The notes beneath the pieces were generated by a model, which did no database searches, was not told where the DNA came from, and saw only the letters and a list, made by a program, of their open reading frames with translations. Both the position numbers and the translations under genes were made by a program. Of a DNA stretch of 37,167 nucleotides, positions 19,786 to 25,726 are shown piece after piece. Each line of letters starts with the position of its first letter. Position 1 is the first letter of the stretch. Source of the stretch: Crocosphaera watsonii WH 8501 (GTDB lineage: Bacteria > Cyanobacteriota > Cyanobacteriia > Cyanobacteriales > Microcystaceae); NCBI RefSeq assembly GCF_000167195.1, contig NZ_AADV02000018.1:1-37167 (forward strand). Reading direction: 5' to 3'.

Positions 19786-20974
19786 TTATGTTATTTGGAC
19801 TGAATTTAGTGTAATTAATTGTTGTAAGAATTTGTTTCCTGAGACTTCTATATCTTTATCTAGGGAAAAGTTTAAACTACGAATAGACATATTATTTATT
19901 TTAGCATTAATGGGCTTATTATTCGTGGGTTCTATAATAATAGCATGATTACAATTTTGTTGAAAAGTATAGGCAATGATTTGCTCAATATCAGATGTTT
20001 TGATTTTTGTTTTATATTTCGTATCCAGTACATATAAATTTTCCTGTGTCTCTTTATTGTAGATAATTAAATCAATTTTGAAACTAAAACTATCGTATTC
20101 TACACGATGCTGTGTTTTAATTCCTAAGTGTGGGGGAAGATGTTGTATTAACCATGCTGCGACAAATTTTTCATATAATTGATTCATATCAACTAAAAAA
20201 GGTAAGCTGTTGTAGTTTCCTTTGTCATGACTGGGTATTGTATTTTCTAAGAAGAAGCGACACAGGGAATGTAAACCGTGATAATCTTCATTGAGACGGT
20301 TACATTTTCGGTTAATACAATCATTTGCTGTAACGGGTGATAGGGTTACATAACCTTGTAATGCGTGATAAACTTTTCTAATTAATATACGAGTATTTGC
20401 TTGACAGATTTGTTGACGACTGATGATATATATTGTCCATAGTAAAATCTGATTATCTTCTATGTCTTGGGTAAAGTTATCATACTGACAAGTTAGTGTC
20501 GGTTTCCAGGGATGTTTAATCATAGTTTTGATATCTATTTTACCCTTGACATAATTTAACTCTTGTGATTGTTTTATATAGGTTGAATAGAGTTCTTTTT
20601 GAATACGGTTTAAGATACGATGAGCAAAAATAGTTGCTAAACGGTTATATAAAGTCGGGTAAACTTTCACAAGTCATTAAACCATCTAAAAATTGAAAAC
20701 TTTTGATGTTATAAGCATACTCTAACATTTAAAAAATATTCCTAATAGGAACTTTCGGGTTAATCTGAAAATTCCAGTCATTATTAATAGGGATATAACC
20801 TACCCATCCTTGAGAAATAATTAGCCACTGATCCCCTTGTTTTGTATATTTTAGATTGATTTGTAATTTACTTTTATATTTTTCTTTTAACTCATCAATA
20901 ATCTCTTGTGGAATTTGATCACGGGGAATATTACAAGGTTTATATTCAGTTAATTCTATCGTATTAGTACACAT
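19786..20974 (-). pseudogene. mcrC: McrC, restriction nuclease subunit, one nonsense and one frameshift
   Basis: A roughly 395-residue McrC broken twice. It starts at ATG 20974, one base after the mcrB stop, with TIELTEYKPCNIPRDQIPQE and IISQGWVGYIPI, the typical McrC N-terminus. TAA at 20729-20731 interrupts the frame (INPKVPIRNIF, stop, MLEYAYNIKSFQFLDGL). About 80 bases later, in 20642-20652, one extra base shifts the frame (ESLPDF to YNRLATIFAHR). The C-terminal PD-(D/E)xK nuclease site survives: FKIDLIIY then YVLDTKYK. McrC works with McrB to cut DNA carrying modified cytosines. With the two lesions the nuclease is probably not made. Two coding fragments remain (19786-20670 and 20729-20974). 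Confidence 0.85.
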
Positions 20975-20975
20975 A

Positions 20976-22496
20976 TCATCTATTTTTCCAACGAAATTGC
21001 TCAATCTTATCGGTTTCGTCAAAAAAGTATTCTTCTAAATAGGGTTCTATTTCCATTGTCCAAATATCCTCGAGCTCATCTAGTAAGCTTTCAGTTAAGA
21101 AGAAAGAAACACCAATTTCATAATGAGGATCATTAATAGTTTTATTGAGTTCAATTAAAATGTTGATTAAGGATTCAATATCATAGTTTGGGCTATTTTT
21201 TTGATGGTATTTTCTGAGGATGTCATAGTTAGGTTTGATGGGAATAAATGCAAAGCGACGACGCAAAGCATGATCTACTAAAGCAATTGAGCGATCGGCA
21301 GTATTCATAGTTCCAATTATATAAACATTTTCGGGTATTTTGAAAGTTTGATCGCTTCCTGCAAGTTGTATTTCTTCTTCTCTATATTCTAGTAAATACA
21401 TCAATTCTCCGAACACTTGAGAGAGGTTAGCACGGTTAATTTCATCAATGATTAAAATACACATCCCTTCACAGTCTTTTGCTTTTTCACAGAAGTTTAA
21501 AAAACGTCCAGGTATCATGGAATATTCTAGGTTTCCATCGGTTGAAGTTTGGGGACGAATACCTTGTATAAAGTCTTCATAACTATAACTAGGATGAAAT
21601 TGTATCAGTTCATAAAATCCATTGTTTTCACTACTGGTTAAATGATTAGCAATATGTTTCGCTAAGTAGGTTTTTCCTGTTCCTGGTGAACCTTGAAAGA
21701 TAATATGTTTTTTACGTTTTAGAGTTTTGATGTATTGGTTTAATTCATTTTCTTCTAAGTTAGTATCTTCAATAAGCTGCATCATTGTGTATTGTTTTGT
21801 CGGGTTTTTATCCAATAGTAGTGAAGTCTTATCAATTTTTTTAATTCTATATAACCAATCACAAAAGTAGTAAAAAATTTCACTGTCAGATAGAAATGGA
21901 ATACTAGACAAATTTTTAGAGTATTTCAGAATTGTAATTATTTTTTGACTTAAAAAATTAATAGATGGATAATCCCTAAGAGATAGATTATAGGAACTTT
22001 CTGATAAATAATTAATTAATTTTAGAGAAGTTGGAATAACCATAAAAAATTTTTGACGATTTAAAGCATTTAAGATTCGAGTAATTAAACAGAGAGGAAT
22101 ACTTTTAAATAAATCGTAGCTTAGATATCTATTACAAATAATCTGCAAATTTTCAGGGTATATTAACAAATCATGAATAAAATTATATACTTTTTCCGCT
22201 AATATATTCCATTGTTCCCTGTCATTAGTAAAAGTTTGATCTATCTTATAAGTTTTACATGATTTTATCCAAGTTTCCTGATCACTTAAACAAAGTAAAT
22301 CTTTCAAGACTCCATTAATAAAATCTTCTTCGTTTATTAATTCTAATTTTGTTTCAATATTTTGAAAACTATTATGTATTGTTTTATGATTATGATCATA
22401 AATATTCTGAGTTTCTAGAAATTCAGGACTATAAAAATAAGAATCAATAAACTCCTCAAATAAATTTTTAATTATATGTTCTTTTTCTTGTTTCAT
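20976..22496 (-). CDS. mcrB: McrB, AAA+ GTPase of modified-DNA restriction
   Basis: A 506-residue intact protein. The C-terminal half is the McrB-type AAA+ motor: Walker A GSPGTGKTYLA (about residue 267), Walker B ILIIDEINRANLSQVFGEL, and the family hallmark IIGTMNTADRSIALVDHALRRRFAF, which holds the GTP-selective MNTADRS. The first about 250 residues should recognise the target DNA; they match no domain I know by eye and are AT-rich. McrB hydrolyses GTP to drive translocation and activates McrC. The gene starts 15 bases after the ASCH gene, with AAGGA upstream, and mcrC follows at one base. With mcrC broken, McrB may bind DNA without cutting. Confidence 0.93.
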   Translation of the reverse strand: MKQEKEHIIKNLFEEFIDSYFYSPEFLETQNIYDHNHKTIHNSFQNIETKLELINEEDFINGVLKDLLCLSDQETWIKSCKTYKIDQTFTNDREQWNILAEKVYNFIHDLLIYPENLQIICNRYLSYDLFKSIPLCLITRILNALNRQKFFMVIPTSLKLINYLSESSYNLSLRDYPSINFLSQKIITILKYSKNLSSIPFLSDSEIFYYFCDWLYRIKKIDKTSLLLDKNPTKQYTMMQLIEDTNLEENELNQYIKTLKRKKHIIFQGSPGTGKTYLAKHIANHLTSSENNGFYELIQFHPSYSYEDFIQGIRPQTSTDGNLEYSMIPGRFLNFCEKAKDCEGMCILIIDEINRANLSQVFGELMYLLEYREEEIQLAGSDQTFKIPENVYIIGTMNTADRSIALVDHALRRRFAFIPIKPNYDILRKYHQKNSPNYDIESLINILIELNKTINDPHYEIGVSFFLTESLLDELEDIWTMEIEPYLEEYFFDETDKIEQFRWKNR

Positions 22497-22511
22497 TTTA
22501 TCTTTTCCTTA

Positions 22512-22973
22512 TTATGTGACTAAAATTTTTTCTTTAACTATAGATTCTAAAATTTCAATCTCTTTGGGTTTTAAGTATCTATAACTTTGGGGAGGAGTAA
22601 AATTTTTAATCTTCTGTTTAAGTTTAATAAGTTTAGCAGTATTATCAAACTTATGTACTTTTGTTATAAAAATGGCTACTCCTATAGATGCCCTTTTGTA
22701 ATAATCATTAAAATCCTTTTCTTTGATATGAGCTTTATTTTTAATTTTATCCCAAAAATTATTTTTTTGTTTAGGAAGATTTTCAAATATTTCAATATTT
22801 TTCACTTCAAAAAAACCGGCTATTACTTGTTGAGGTGAAGACACATAAACTAAAACTATGTCCCCAGGTTTTAATCGAGTCCTAGTTTTTCGTAATTCGA
22901 CTGTTTTTTCACCGTCCAGAATTTTCTGTGCATATTCTGGCTTAATAGAAATAAGAAGGAAATTTTTACACAT
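22512..22973 (-). CDS. ASCH/PUA-like domain protein
   Basis: A 153-residue single-domain protein with the ASCH pattern: LLISIKPEYAQKILDGEKTVELRKTR at the start, LKPGDIVLVYVSSPQQVIAGFFEV, then a C-terminal helical part. ASCH and the related EVE domains belong to the PUA-like superfamily and bind RNA or modified bases. EVE domains are known partners or fusions of McrB, where they read modified DNA. The gene sits in the middle of the operon, 10 bases after the GNAT-PIN pseudogene and 15 before mcrB, so a role as base-recognition module for McrBC is a reasonable inference, not shown by sequence. The frame looks intact. Confidence 0.75.
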   Translation of the reverse strand: MCKNFLLISIKPEYAQKILDGEKTVELRKTRTRLKPGDIVLVYVSSPQQVIAGFFEVKNIEIFENLPKQKNNFWDKIKNKAHIKEKDFNDYYKRASIGVAIFITKVHKFDNTAKLIKLKQKIKNFTPPQSYRYLKPKEIEILESIVKEKILVT

Positions 22974-22983
22974 AATGTTTGAA

Positions 22984-25102
22984 TTATTGACCTTTCATTC
23001 CCTGCTTATAAATTATAGCAAACTTTTCATTATTAATATAGGTAGGAGATATAAAAGTTGTTTTATTTTTAAGTATTTCTTGAGCTTCTTTTAAACTAAC
23101 AGGGTATTCAAATAATTCAGTATCACTAAACTTAATTGCCATGATTTCTGTCTGCTCATCATTCTTAGCAACTTCAAGAATATTAGACAATTCATAAATA
23201 CCCAAATGACGATATTTACGATGTAGTTCTTTTGGAGTATCAATAATAACTTCATCTAGTCTAGAACAAGCTCTAATGCGACCAACATGACAAAATTTTT
23301 TTCTATTACTACCACTACTGACATACCATAAAATTCGACCACTTATACCTAGAGCTAATTGTTTAGGGGATCTTTTAGACTTATAATACACTGCCTCTCG
23401 GTTAAGAGCTAGTTTTATTTGACTAAAACCAAATAAAGTTTGTTCAGCTAATTTTTGATCAAACAAATCAGCTGCCCATTTAGGTTCAATTGGTATGATA
23501 AAATTCTTAATATCATGATCAATAATTTTTAGAGGAAACAAGTAACGTTCAATCAGTAAAATATTTTCTGCATTTAAGTTATTTTTTCTAAGATTTTCAG
23601 AGAACCTTTGAAAAAAGAAAGTCAATTCTGGTATTTTTTTCCAACTTATTCAATTTGTCTGCAATATTTTTCTTTGTATCAATTAAAGATAAATTTAATT
23701 TTGATAATTCATTGTTTGTTTCTATAAAATAGTCTTCTTGAATTATATTAATGATTTCATATTGAAGGTATTTATCGGTAATTTTAGTTAATTGTCGTCC
23801 CTCTTGTGCTGATAGAGAAATACTTGTAAATAACAAATGTCTTGCTACTGTTTCAGCAAGATAATGTTCACTTATTCTAATCATAGTAATTTCTAGCTGA
23901 TCTTTTTTACTTCTATTATAGACAATTAAAGCTATTGCTTCGTTATCTTCATCTTTAATTATTAAGCACTCATGAGTATCTTTCTTAAAAATAAAATTTC
24001 TAAGATTTTCTAAAAAATATTGCTGTTCTTCTTCTGAGCAACTATTAACTAAATCATGTCTCAGTTTGTTTACTTCTTCTAGATTAATAGGAAGTTGTTT
24101 TAATGAGTGAATTCCTGCAAAAAATCTGGAGTGATAATTTTTTTGTTATTCAATATCATCAAAACGTTTTATAAAGTCATTAGGACTTATGAGAATAACT
24201 TTAAATTCTTCATAGAATTGGTCAGATAATTTCAAAATATCTACATTGTTAGTCAAAATTATATTAATCCCTGAAGCAAGAGATTGTACGATATGACGAA
24301 GATAAGATTCATCTATTAGTAAGTTATTTTCCTGAATAAGTGATTTTATTGATATTAAGAACCTTTGATATTGCTGATCTGTATAATTAATACAACTCAA
24401 TTGAGAAAAAATATTTCGGATAGATTGTCTTTTTTGATAATCATTTATTTGGTTAATTTTATTTAAAATTTCCTTACTAACCCACATCTCTATGTTAGGC
24501 TCAAGCCAATCAGCTAATAAAACTTTAGAATCCTTACTTTTTTCTTCTTGAGGTTTAGATGAATGATTATATAAATAAATTTCTTGAAATATAGAGTAAT
24601 CTATAATAATAGATAACTTTGATTCAGATTTTTGATCATTTATCAGTGACAATAAATTAGGATAGCCGTAGTCTAACCACCAATATGTAAGGAGTTTTCC
24701 TTTTGTTTTTGCTTTTTTATCATAGACAGCACAAAAACCTAGTTTGAGCCACATATTATCGATACCATAATCACGACGACATCGCAATTCTATCCCCCTA
24801 TATTGAGATGTTATACTTTTTAAATAATTTAAGAGTTGTTTCGCGATTCCTTGTCCTCTATAATTATTTTTAATACATAGATGTATAATACTAATTCGAT
24901 TATGACTCTTAACATTTCTGTACATTAAATAACCCATAAACTCGCCACTATCAGAAAGAGCAACTAAAATCTGTTTATTTCTTGCTTTTTCCTCAAAAGC
25001 CCCCTTATAAAAGAAGCCTAAAGTAGCTTTGTTTGCATCACCAAGCTTATTTACTTCAGGTAAATATGGAGAGGTTTCGTTGATAGCTTTAATTCGTACC
25101 AT
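22984..25102 (-). pseudogene. Multidomain GNAT-PIN-(GNAT-like)-ASCH-like protein, one nonsense and one A-run frameshift
   Basis: A single ancestral gene of about 705 codons, now three pieces. Part 1 (24146-25102, 318 residues) is a GNAT acetyltransferase (LVALSDSGEFMGYLMYR; acetyl-CoA loop NYRGQGIAKQLL near residue 80) followed by a PIN-like domain (IIIDYSIFQEIY; INIILTNNVDIL). TAA at 24146-24148 ends it, but the same frame continues: FFAGIHSLKQLPINLEEV, then FKKDTHECLIIKDEDNEAI and TMIRISEHYLAETVARHLL, a second GNAT-like region. At 23634-23640 a run of seven A on the coding strand holds one base too many. In the corrected frame follow IPELTFFFQRFSENL, IEPKWAADLFDQKLAEQTLFG, ILWYVSSGS, RIRACSRLDEV and IMAIKFSDTELFEYPV, an ASCH-like C-terminal domain. 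I recognise this as a known long bacterial family of unsettled function. It is the first gene of the ASCH-mcrB-mcrC operon. Confidence 0.75.
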
Positions 25103-25292: not shown

Positions 25293-25619
25293 TCATGTAT
25301 CTTCATCCTCTACAGTTTTTAATAATTCTGATAAGGCTTCAATTGATTTTTTATCAGTTTGAGGTGACCAAACCACTGCTGATGTAGAGGCTAACTGCTG
25401 TAAAAGTTTCTCGCTTTCTTCAACCCGAATAAAGCCTTCTTCTTTAGCTTTTATAGCTAATAATTTATCTTCTAATTCTGTTAACCTTTCAAATTCTTCA
25501 GTAGAAAGAACAACAGCAACATTACGTCCTTTTTTGGTGATGTGTACTGGTTCTCTTCTGGCTAAATCTAACATTTCACCAAAACGGTTTTTTGCGTCAG
25601 ATGCTGCTAACTTTTTCAT
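25293..25619 (-). CDS. Phd/YefM-family antitoxin, no partner toxin adjacent
   Basis: A 108-residue protein starting at ATG 25619 (a TTG three bases earlier would add one residue). The first half is a Phd/YefM antitoxin: KLAASDAKNRFGEMLDLARREPVHITKKGRNVAVVLSTEEFERL. These bind their own promoter and neutralise a Doc or RelE/PIN-type toxin. The C-terminal part (IRVEESEKLLQQLAST and a SPQTDKKSIEALSELL helix) is longer than usual. No toxin gene is adjacent; downstream is the small plus-strand frame, and upstream nirA. It may act on a toxin elsewhere. Confidence 0.82.
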   Translation of the reverse strand: MKKLAASDAKNRFGEMLDLARREPVHITKKGRNVAVVLSTEEFERLTELEDKLLAIKAKEEGFIRVEESEKLLQQLASTSAVVWSPQTDKKSIEALSELLKTVEDEDT

Positions 25620-25726
25620 CAATTTTTTAATTTAGTTACTATCATTAAGTCTAGAATAGCTATTTTAGCTAAAATAGTCAATTAACAATTCAATCTATCT
25701 CTGATTTTACCCTCAAGCCCATTCCT

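Follow-up and report, generated by a model that had tools for sequence, protein, structure and literature searches.

A cyanobacterial McrBC operon with an exchangeable front block encoding a GNAT/PIN-like/PUA protein and an ASCH protein

Closest described systems

The closest described relatives of the genes analyzed here are operons in which a protein of the (PIN)-GNAT-EVE type is paired with an ASCH protein. According to the main text of Bell et al. (2020; PMC7641849), such pairs occur near type I restriction-modification, CRISPR-Cas and DUF499 genes and are called putative toxin-antitoxin systems. We analyzed a 37,167-nucleotide stretch of the Crocosphaera watsonii WH 8501 genome (contig NZ_AADV02000018.1; hereafter, the window), the minus strand of which carries an operon composed of a large multidomain gene, an ASCH gene, mcrB, and mcrC, separated by gaps of 10, 15, and 1 bases, respectively. 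As in the described pairs, putative PIN, GNAT-like and PUA-superfamily domains are combined in one protein, the ASCH protein is encoded by a separate gene, and the surroundings are those of defence genes; however, the window type has an extra GNAT domain before the PIN domain, and additionally contains McrC and an McrB with a special N-terminal domain. Comparison with related loci reveals that the large gene, the ASCH gene and the part of mcrB encoding this N-terminal domain are transferred together, as a single cassette, onto a shared chassis formed by the McrB GTPase domain and McrC.

In PADLOC, the corresponding entry is PDC-M11, which has candidate status only and under whose name our literature search found no publication. 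The window ASCH protein is assigned to PDC-M11B and the large protein aligns with PDC-M11A; however, PDC-M11A starts after the first GNAT domain, and McrBC genes are absent from the names of the matching candidates. The operon shares with McrBC of Escherichia coli K-12 a GTPase domain with an NxxD-type motif and a nuclease of the McrC family. However, E. coli McrB has its own base-reading domain (main text of PMC11090510), whereas the N-terminal domain of the window-type McrB is predicted to be helical, and the PUA and ASCH domains are encoded as separate proteins. The EVE-McrB fusions mentioned in the main text of PMC7641849 also pair a PUA-superfamily domain with McrB; in the window type, the PUA/ASCH domains reside on other proteins. 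The CoCoNuT systems, as presented in PMC11090510, are similar in having McrB relatives with RNA-related extra parts, but they are distinguished by an NxD motif, whereas the window McrB has NTAD (the NxxD form). Finally, the Brig3-BapA system resembles the window operon by description only, as an ASCH-like protein in an operon with an enzyme attacking modified phage DNA; there, according to the accessible text of a 2026 preprint (PMC13160076), the partner Brig3 is a DNA glycosylase, for which BapA, an ASCH-like glucosyl hydrolase with two barrels, strips glucose from the DNA.

The first-pass annotation of this DNA knew of no described system with such a composition, which holds only in part: the two-gene pair has already been described (Bell et al., 2020; PDC-M11), whereas its union with McrBC was not found in print. 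Within the literature searched, including the accessible text of PMC10853773, PMC12839542, and PMC11514479, the pair is described by Bell et al. only. The accessible text of PMC7641849, figures and supplements apart, gives no McrBC operon partner for it, its main text does not contain the string "cyanobacter", and the main text of the McrBC census PMC11090510 does not contain ASCH, GNAT or acetyltransferase. The literature covered, figures, supplements and most subscription papers apart, also yielded no fixed four-gene form with the extra N-terminal GNAT, no McrB with a predicted helical N-terminal domain lacking a base-reading barrel, and no allelic exchange. What is known is the two-gene pair; its fixed union with McrBC, the special McrB N-terminal domain and the cassette exchange appear new within the literature covered.

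Linkage with mcrBC and exchange of the front block

We surveyed 386 genomes of the phylum using the C-terminal part of the large protein and McrC as queries. The former was found in 16 genomes, namely the window's own genome, 14 with strong matches and one with a weak match. In the 14 strong genomes, the large gene is accompanied by the ASCH gene in all 14 cases, by mcrB in 12, and by mcrC behind mcrB in 10; in the two genomes with mcrB and without mcrC, either the contig stops inside mcrB or mcrB is short. McrC itself was matched in 74 of the 386 genomes (80 matches), mostly without the large gene and the ASCH gene. The linkage is thus beyond chance, since McrB and McrC accompany the large gene at these frequencies although any McrC match at all is limited to 74 of the 386 genomes.

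A scan of named genomes yielded 62 loci with the large protein, in which mcrB was counted within 2 kb and mcrC within 4 kb of mcrB. The ASCH gene lies directly behind the large gene in 61 of them, mcrB was found in 40 and mcrC in 38, in agreement with the earlier proposal that the McrBC operon is extended by these two genes; 19 loci have no mcrB in reach, and three contigs end too soon. All 40 mcrB-linked loci are cyanobacterial, and the others come from cyanobacteria and, judging by name, from Scalindua, Verrucomicrobia, Acidimicrobiaceae, Anaerolineales, and Eubacteriales. The operon was also found on plasmid pCAL6303.01, behind genes for a cytosine methyltransferase and an Eco29kI-type nuclease. 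For the phylogenetic tree, we used 50 of the 62 loci together with locus L095, omitting 12 that were truncated, broken or near copies; the unlinked group in this tree takes in the three loci that are cut off by a contig end. The 31 McrBC-linked rows and a single unlinked one (Spirulina, L078) form one clade with support values of 97/95. The large gene is split into two open reading frames in genome G255, and in Planktothrix rubescens PCC 7821 (L086, identical to L018) it is present as two frames of 374 and 289 amino acids, a broken or divided copy.

As controls, we took from the survey 20 of the McrC places that lack the large gene, for the most part from the same order, and compared their flanks with those of 46 module-bearing loci (a number that includes the same species from two collections), requiring at least 300 shared bases on each side. 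Twelve of the 20 control McrBC loci have both flanks in common with a locus carrying the large gene and the ASCH gene. For example, genomes G064 and G048 are 95.7% identical over 2.0 kb of shared upstream sequence and 97.5% identical over 4.1 kb of shared downstream sequence, between which 3.5 kb with the large gene, the ASCH gene, and the first 271 codons of mcrB are replaced by 1.2 kb; the same replacement pattern recurs in comparisons involving Nostoc, Planktothrix, and Microcoleus loci. The breakpoint falls within mcrB. Eighteen breakpoint pairs were chosen by eye from the common flanks and 17 of them scored (L040/L099 was left unscored); in all 17, homology restarts 10-39 codons before the Walker A motif, at an offset that agrees between both partners within one codon. 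McrB was recognized in 19 of the 20 controls, its C-terminal part being 51-70% identical to that of the window McrB in 17 and 38-41% in two, and none of these 19 matches starts before residue 172 of the window McrB. It is the combination of shared flanks in 12 of 20 controls with a break before Walker A that identifies the front part of the operon as one moving cassette.

Searching the 386 genomes for the McrB N-terminal domain retrieved 13 genomes besides the window's own; in 12 it adjoins the large gene, and the remaining match is weak (9e-4). In a mirror-tree comparison of 31 operons with all five parts complete (selected from L033-L096), the distances of this domain track those of the ASCH protein (0.70) and the large protein (0.68) more closely than those of its own GTPase domain (0.42), and the bootstrap intervals for both differences, ASCH minus GTPase and large protein minus GTPase, lie above zero.

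The McrBC loci seem to carry a series of differing McrB front ends, since the N-terminal region of McrB contains TPR repeats in the McrBC locus at L106 (5591-7831). The alternative allele of the locus, seen in L098, L100, L103, and L107, has a 145-amino-acid gene before an McrB with another N-terminal domain, and in L098 this gene belongs to the PDDEXK_3 nuclease family. In Okeania (L053, 10824-15218), two McrB-like genes of 568 and 510 amino acids stand in tandem, which may be a trace of cassette insertion.

A neighbour scan of 20 chosen proteins from 10 loci without McrBC revealed restriction-type neighbours in five: Mrr in Pseudanabaena (L067), GmrSD and MmeI (L088), DUF499/DUF1156 (L091), an Eco57I-type methylase (L095), and an SNF2 helicase (L085). 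In the Pseudanabaena loci L067, L076, L079, and L080, a convergent gene of 304 amino acids lies behind the two-gene form, which gene is the Mrr endonuclease gene in L067 and has the same length and place in the other three.

Gene layout, lesions and predicted domains

The operon parts in the window, all on the minus strand, are as follows.

24662..25102, minus strand: large gene, N-terminal GNAT acetyltransferase domain (codons 1-147); Pfam GNAT, 8e-9
24149..24640, minus strand: large gene, putative PIN-like domain (about codons 155-318); weak PIN_3 matches, alpha/beta pattern in the L070 model, conserved Asp168, Glu211, and Thr/Ser284
23639..24145, minus strand: large gene, putative second GNAT-like domain; tblastn of the intact L070 protein, GNAT-like strand/helix order in the model by our own comparison
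22987..23616, minus strand: large gene, C-terminal PUA/ASCH-like domain; C-terminal part of PADLOC PDC-M11A (3.5e-8), hhalign to the ASCH family, Foldseek match to ZmASCH
22512..22973, minus strand: single-domain ASCH protein of 153 amino acids (PDC-M11B); Pfam ASCH (3e-8), PADLOC PDC-M11B (8e-33), ZmASCH 5gus
20976-22496, minus strand: mcrB, whole gene; Pfam AAA_5 (1e-22)
21843..22496, minus strand: mcrB, family-specific N-terminal domain (codons 1-218), without Pfam match and helical in the L070 model
20976..21800, minus strand: mcrB, AAA+ GTPase domain with Walker A (GSPGTGKT) and NTAD
19786..20974, minus strand: mcrC, broken by a stop and a frame change; Pfam McrBC (1.3e-39)

The order, strand, coordinates and gaps of the four genes in the first-pass annotation were reproduced on recheck. 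It had described a multidomain large protein of about 705 residues and expected intact relatives; among these, Crocosphaera sp. MO_192.B18 (L070) encodes a large protein of 708 amino acids and is 68-87% identical to the window pieces. It had also reported the first and last genes as broken, and against L070 each of them indeed falls into two frames and contains stops. In tblastn, the large gene matches in one frame from 25102 to 23639 (to about codon 488) and in another from 23616 to 22987, so that the frame changes between 23639 and 23616; the open frame itself ends after codon 318, at the stop in 24146-24148. For mcrC, one frame covers 20965-20561, with a stop, and another 20658-19804, and the match contains three stops in total. 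For the window pieces compared with L070, the ratio of nonsynonymous to synonymous substitution rates (dN/dS) amounts to 0.17-0.38, and because this range holds behind the lesions too, the breaks are either recent or sequence errors. A genome-wide match with the C-terminal part of the large protein and McrC found no second copy of either in the window's own genome. The first-pass annotation took the window copy, with two genes broken, to be probably dead. This copy is an example, if a broken one, of a four-gene McrBC-based operon. Just upstream of the operon, at 25293-25622, lies a gene for a Phd/YefM-type antitoxin (Pfam, 2e-15; PADLOC PDC-M52A, 3e-14).

The structural model of the intact L070 large protein is good (predicted local distance difference test, pLDDT, 88; predicted template modelling score, pTM, 0.81). 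Its first 147 residues resemble N-acetyltransferases, with protein N-terminal acetyltransferases as the best fold matches, and the coenzyme A motif is kept in most relatives (Arg82 in 39, Gly85 in 40, and Ala87 in 41 of 50). A second structural alignment was filled by this first GNAT domain, and its result speaks for that domain only. The domain order that follows, PIN, GNAT-like and PUA/EVE-like, is putative, the PIN and second GNAT assignments being predicted from layout, weak matches and conserved residues. Residues 160-310 of the model have a PIN-like layout, with Asp168 in 46, Glu211 in 44, and Thr/Ser284 in all 50 relatives. The Pfam PIN matches are all below the cut-off (0.16 in the window, 0.012 in L033, 0.022 in L095, none in L070), and a profile of 18 sequences matched no PIN chain among solved structures. 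The alignment of relatives revealed no recognizable coenzyme A-binding motif in the second GNAT-like domain, so the first may be the active one of the two. Neither this domain nor the C-terminal one has a meaningful solved relative by sequence, and the latter has no Pfam match; however, a profile comparison shows its family to be homologous to the ASCH protein family (hhalign, probability 96.8), and ZmASCH (5guq, E 2e-7) is among the Foldseek matches of the entire L070 model. Mean column identity is 55% for the C-terminal, 46% for the PIN, and 43% for the second GNAT domain. PDC-M11A matches the C-terminal piece in the window as well as L033, L095, L085, L091, and L032, but not L070; its profile begins downstream of the first GNAT domain, and residues 163-649 of a Prevotella relative align with profile positions 3-458 of 486. 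A phage origin was not indicated: the L033 large protein had no match at E 1e-5 in one collection of 50,697 phage records.

The McrB GTPase domain in the window retains Walker A and the NxxD-form motif and is normal for McrB in the L070 model, and the intact L070 McrC matches the Pfam family PF10117 (1e-46). No Pfam domain was found ahead of the GTPase part in the window or L070. The model of the L070 McrB, of moderate quality (pTM 0.49), predicts only helices in the N-terminal domain, with no strand of at least three residues and no barrel, and this domain has no structural match of its own among the matches listed.

The ASCH family profile matches the ZmASCH structure 5gus (E 1e-28). According to the accessible text of PMC5615036, ZmASCH binds nucleic acid and cleaves single-stranded RNA, not DNA, via Tyr47, Lys53, and Ser128. 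The corresponding residues in the aligned family are Tyr in 32, Lys in 24 (Gln in the window), and Ser in 26 of 32 sequences. A role of ASCH domains as readers of N6-methyladenine has been predicted and, as far as the text of PMC11037411 goes, is unconfirmed.

Proposed mechanism and alternative explanations

The data show the operon structure, its conservation, the cassette exchange, and the types of fold to which the GNAT, ASCH, and GTPase parts belong; from these, we infer an anti-phage function, a target, a docking step and an order of events as follows. The operon would act in anti-phage restriction, with specificity provided by separate PUA/ASCH subunits, a PIN/GNAT arm, an exchangeable front block and a DNA-cutting back block, a model to which we give about even chances. 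The front block (the large GNAT-PIN-GNAT-like-PUA protein, the ASCH protein, and the helical McrB N-terminal domain) would be an exchangeable sensor/effector cassette, and the back block (the McrB GTPase domain and the McrC nuclease) a common DNA-cutting chassis. As McrB seems to lack a base-reading domain, we propose that recognition falls to the PUA and ASCH proteins, which would detect some characteristic of the invader's nucleic acid, a modified base being the probable one, and would dock via the McrB N-terminal domain; GTP-driven McrBC would then cut the DNA. RNA, perhaps tRNA, may be the substrate of the putative PIN RNase and the acetyltransferase, which would form a second arm for cases in which DNA cutting does not suffice. 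The first-pass annotation had suggested that the ASCH protein would read modified bases and that the acetyltransferase and RNase parts may be an abortive back-up; both ideas are hypothetical, and the former has the RNA cleavage by ZmASCH against it and the action of BapA on modified phage DNA for it. More generally, and with slightly less confidence than an even chance, we tentatively suggest a modular type IV restriction, in which specificity is supplied in trans from a swappable cassette of PUA/ASCH sensors and an McrB adaptor domain, the sensor having its own PIN/acetyltransferase effector. We count in favor of the restriction model the precedent of BapA, an ASCH-like protein acting on modified phage DNA beside a defence enzyme, and the restriction-type neighbours of the pair in five of the 10 McrBC-less loci.

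Several points weigh against this model. The McrBC link is confined to a single clade and therefore represents one origin rather than 40, and in 19 of 62 loci the pair stands without mcrB in reach. In five of the 10 loci without McrBC, the tested neighbours are metabolic, signalling or other non-restriction genes. The large-protein distances track McrC (0.72) as well as the McrB N-terminal domain (0.68), and the interval for the preference of this domain for ASCH over McrC (0.70 vs. 0.56) includes zero. Docking is a guess, and the McrB model is of moderate quality only. The PIN aspartate is absent in four of the 50 relatives, where Ala replaces Asp168. The closest solved ASCH protein, ZmASCH, is an RNase that leaves DNA uncut.

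The same loci without mcrB suggest that the large protein and the ASCH protein may constitute an independent toxin-antitoxin-like or RNA-targeting pair, with the GNAT and PIN domains as toxic enzymes and ASCH as a regulator or RNA binder, and with McrBC in the operon only for joint expression, as layered defences. This accords with the putative toxin-antitoxin reading of such pairs by Bell et al. (main text of PMC7641849) and with the RNase activity of ZmASCH (PMC5615036, accessible text), whose Tyr47 is invariant and Ser128 mostly kept here. However, the McrB N-terminal domain, the type of which is found beside the pair, is part of the unit that is exchanged; simple co-expression is insufficient because half of mcrB moves with the pair, and we regard this explanation as unlikely, though of real weight. 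In another scenario, the ASCH or PUA protein would enzymatically remove or change a hypermodified base and thereby open the DNA to cutting by McrBC. The BapA report, in which glycosylase Brig3 is served in this way, makes it a real rival to a simple reader role, and the ASCH protein YqfB is described, in the accessible text on it, as an N4-acylcytosine amidohydrolase; nevertheless, ASCH partners also occur at loci without McrBC, and we consider this scenario improbable.

A third role for the front block would be that of writer and reader: GNAT would acetylate an amino-bearing base or tag, which PUA/ASCH would read, and McrBC or PIN would act on the tagged (or untagged) molecules. Acetylation of DNA bases has been proposed for this protein class by Iyer et al., as cited in the main text of PMC7641849, and the added N-terminal GNAT keeps its coenzyme A motif in most relatives; however, its best fold matches are protein N-terminal acetyltransferases, and nothing in our data points to a nucleic-acid substrate; we consider this idea improbable as well. 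The breaks in two of the four window genes would fit genes that are neighbours by chance, or that have decayed, and share no function, but this appears negligible given the same gene order in 40 of 62 loci, the plasmid included, and the dN/dS of 0.17-0.38 relative to L070. The first-pass annotation had named random proximity to mcrBC as the finding that would speak against it; we rejected chance proximity, as McrB is adjacent in 12 of 14 genomes, the order recurs in those 40 named loci, and McrC is present in only 74 of 386 genomes.

If the restriction model is correct, McrBC would change its target by swapping a block of separate readers and an McrB adaptor, and not only by reader-McrB fusion. 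McrBC loci would then retarget through replacement of one half of the operon, comparable to the switching of specificity subunits in type I systems. In cyanobacteria such as Nostoc, Anabaena, and Planktothrix, the unexplained (PIN)-GNAT-EVE/ASCH genes would thereby gain a concrete partner and a role that can be tested.

Elsewhere in the window, the AT-rich segment 4498-6925 (GC content of 26-31% per kb) contains a gene for a KAP-type NTPase and a TPR-repeat gene and may be a second acquired region.

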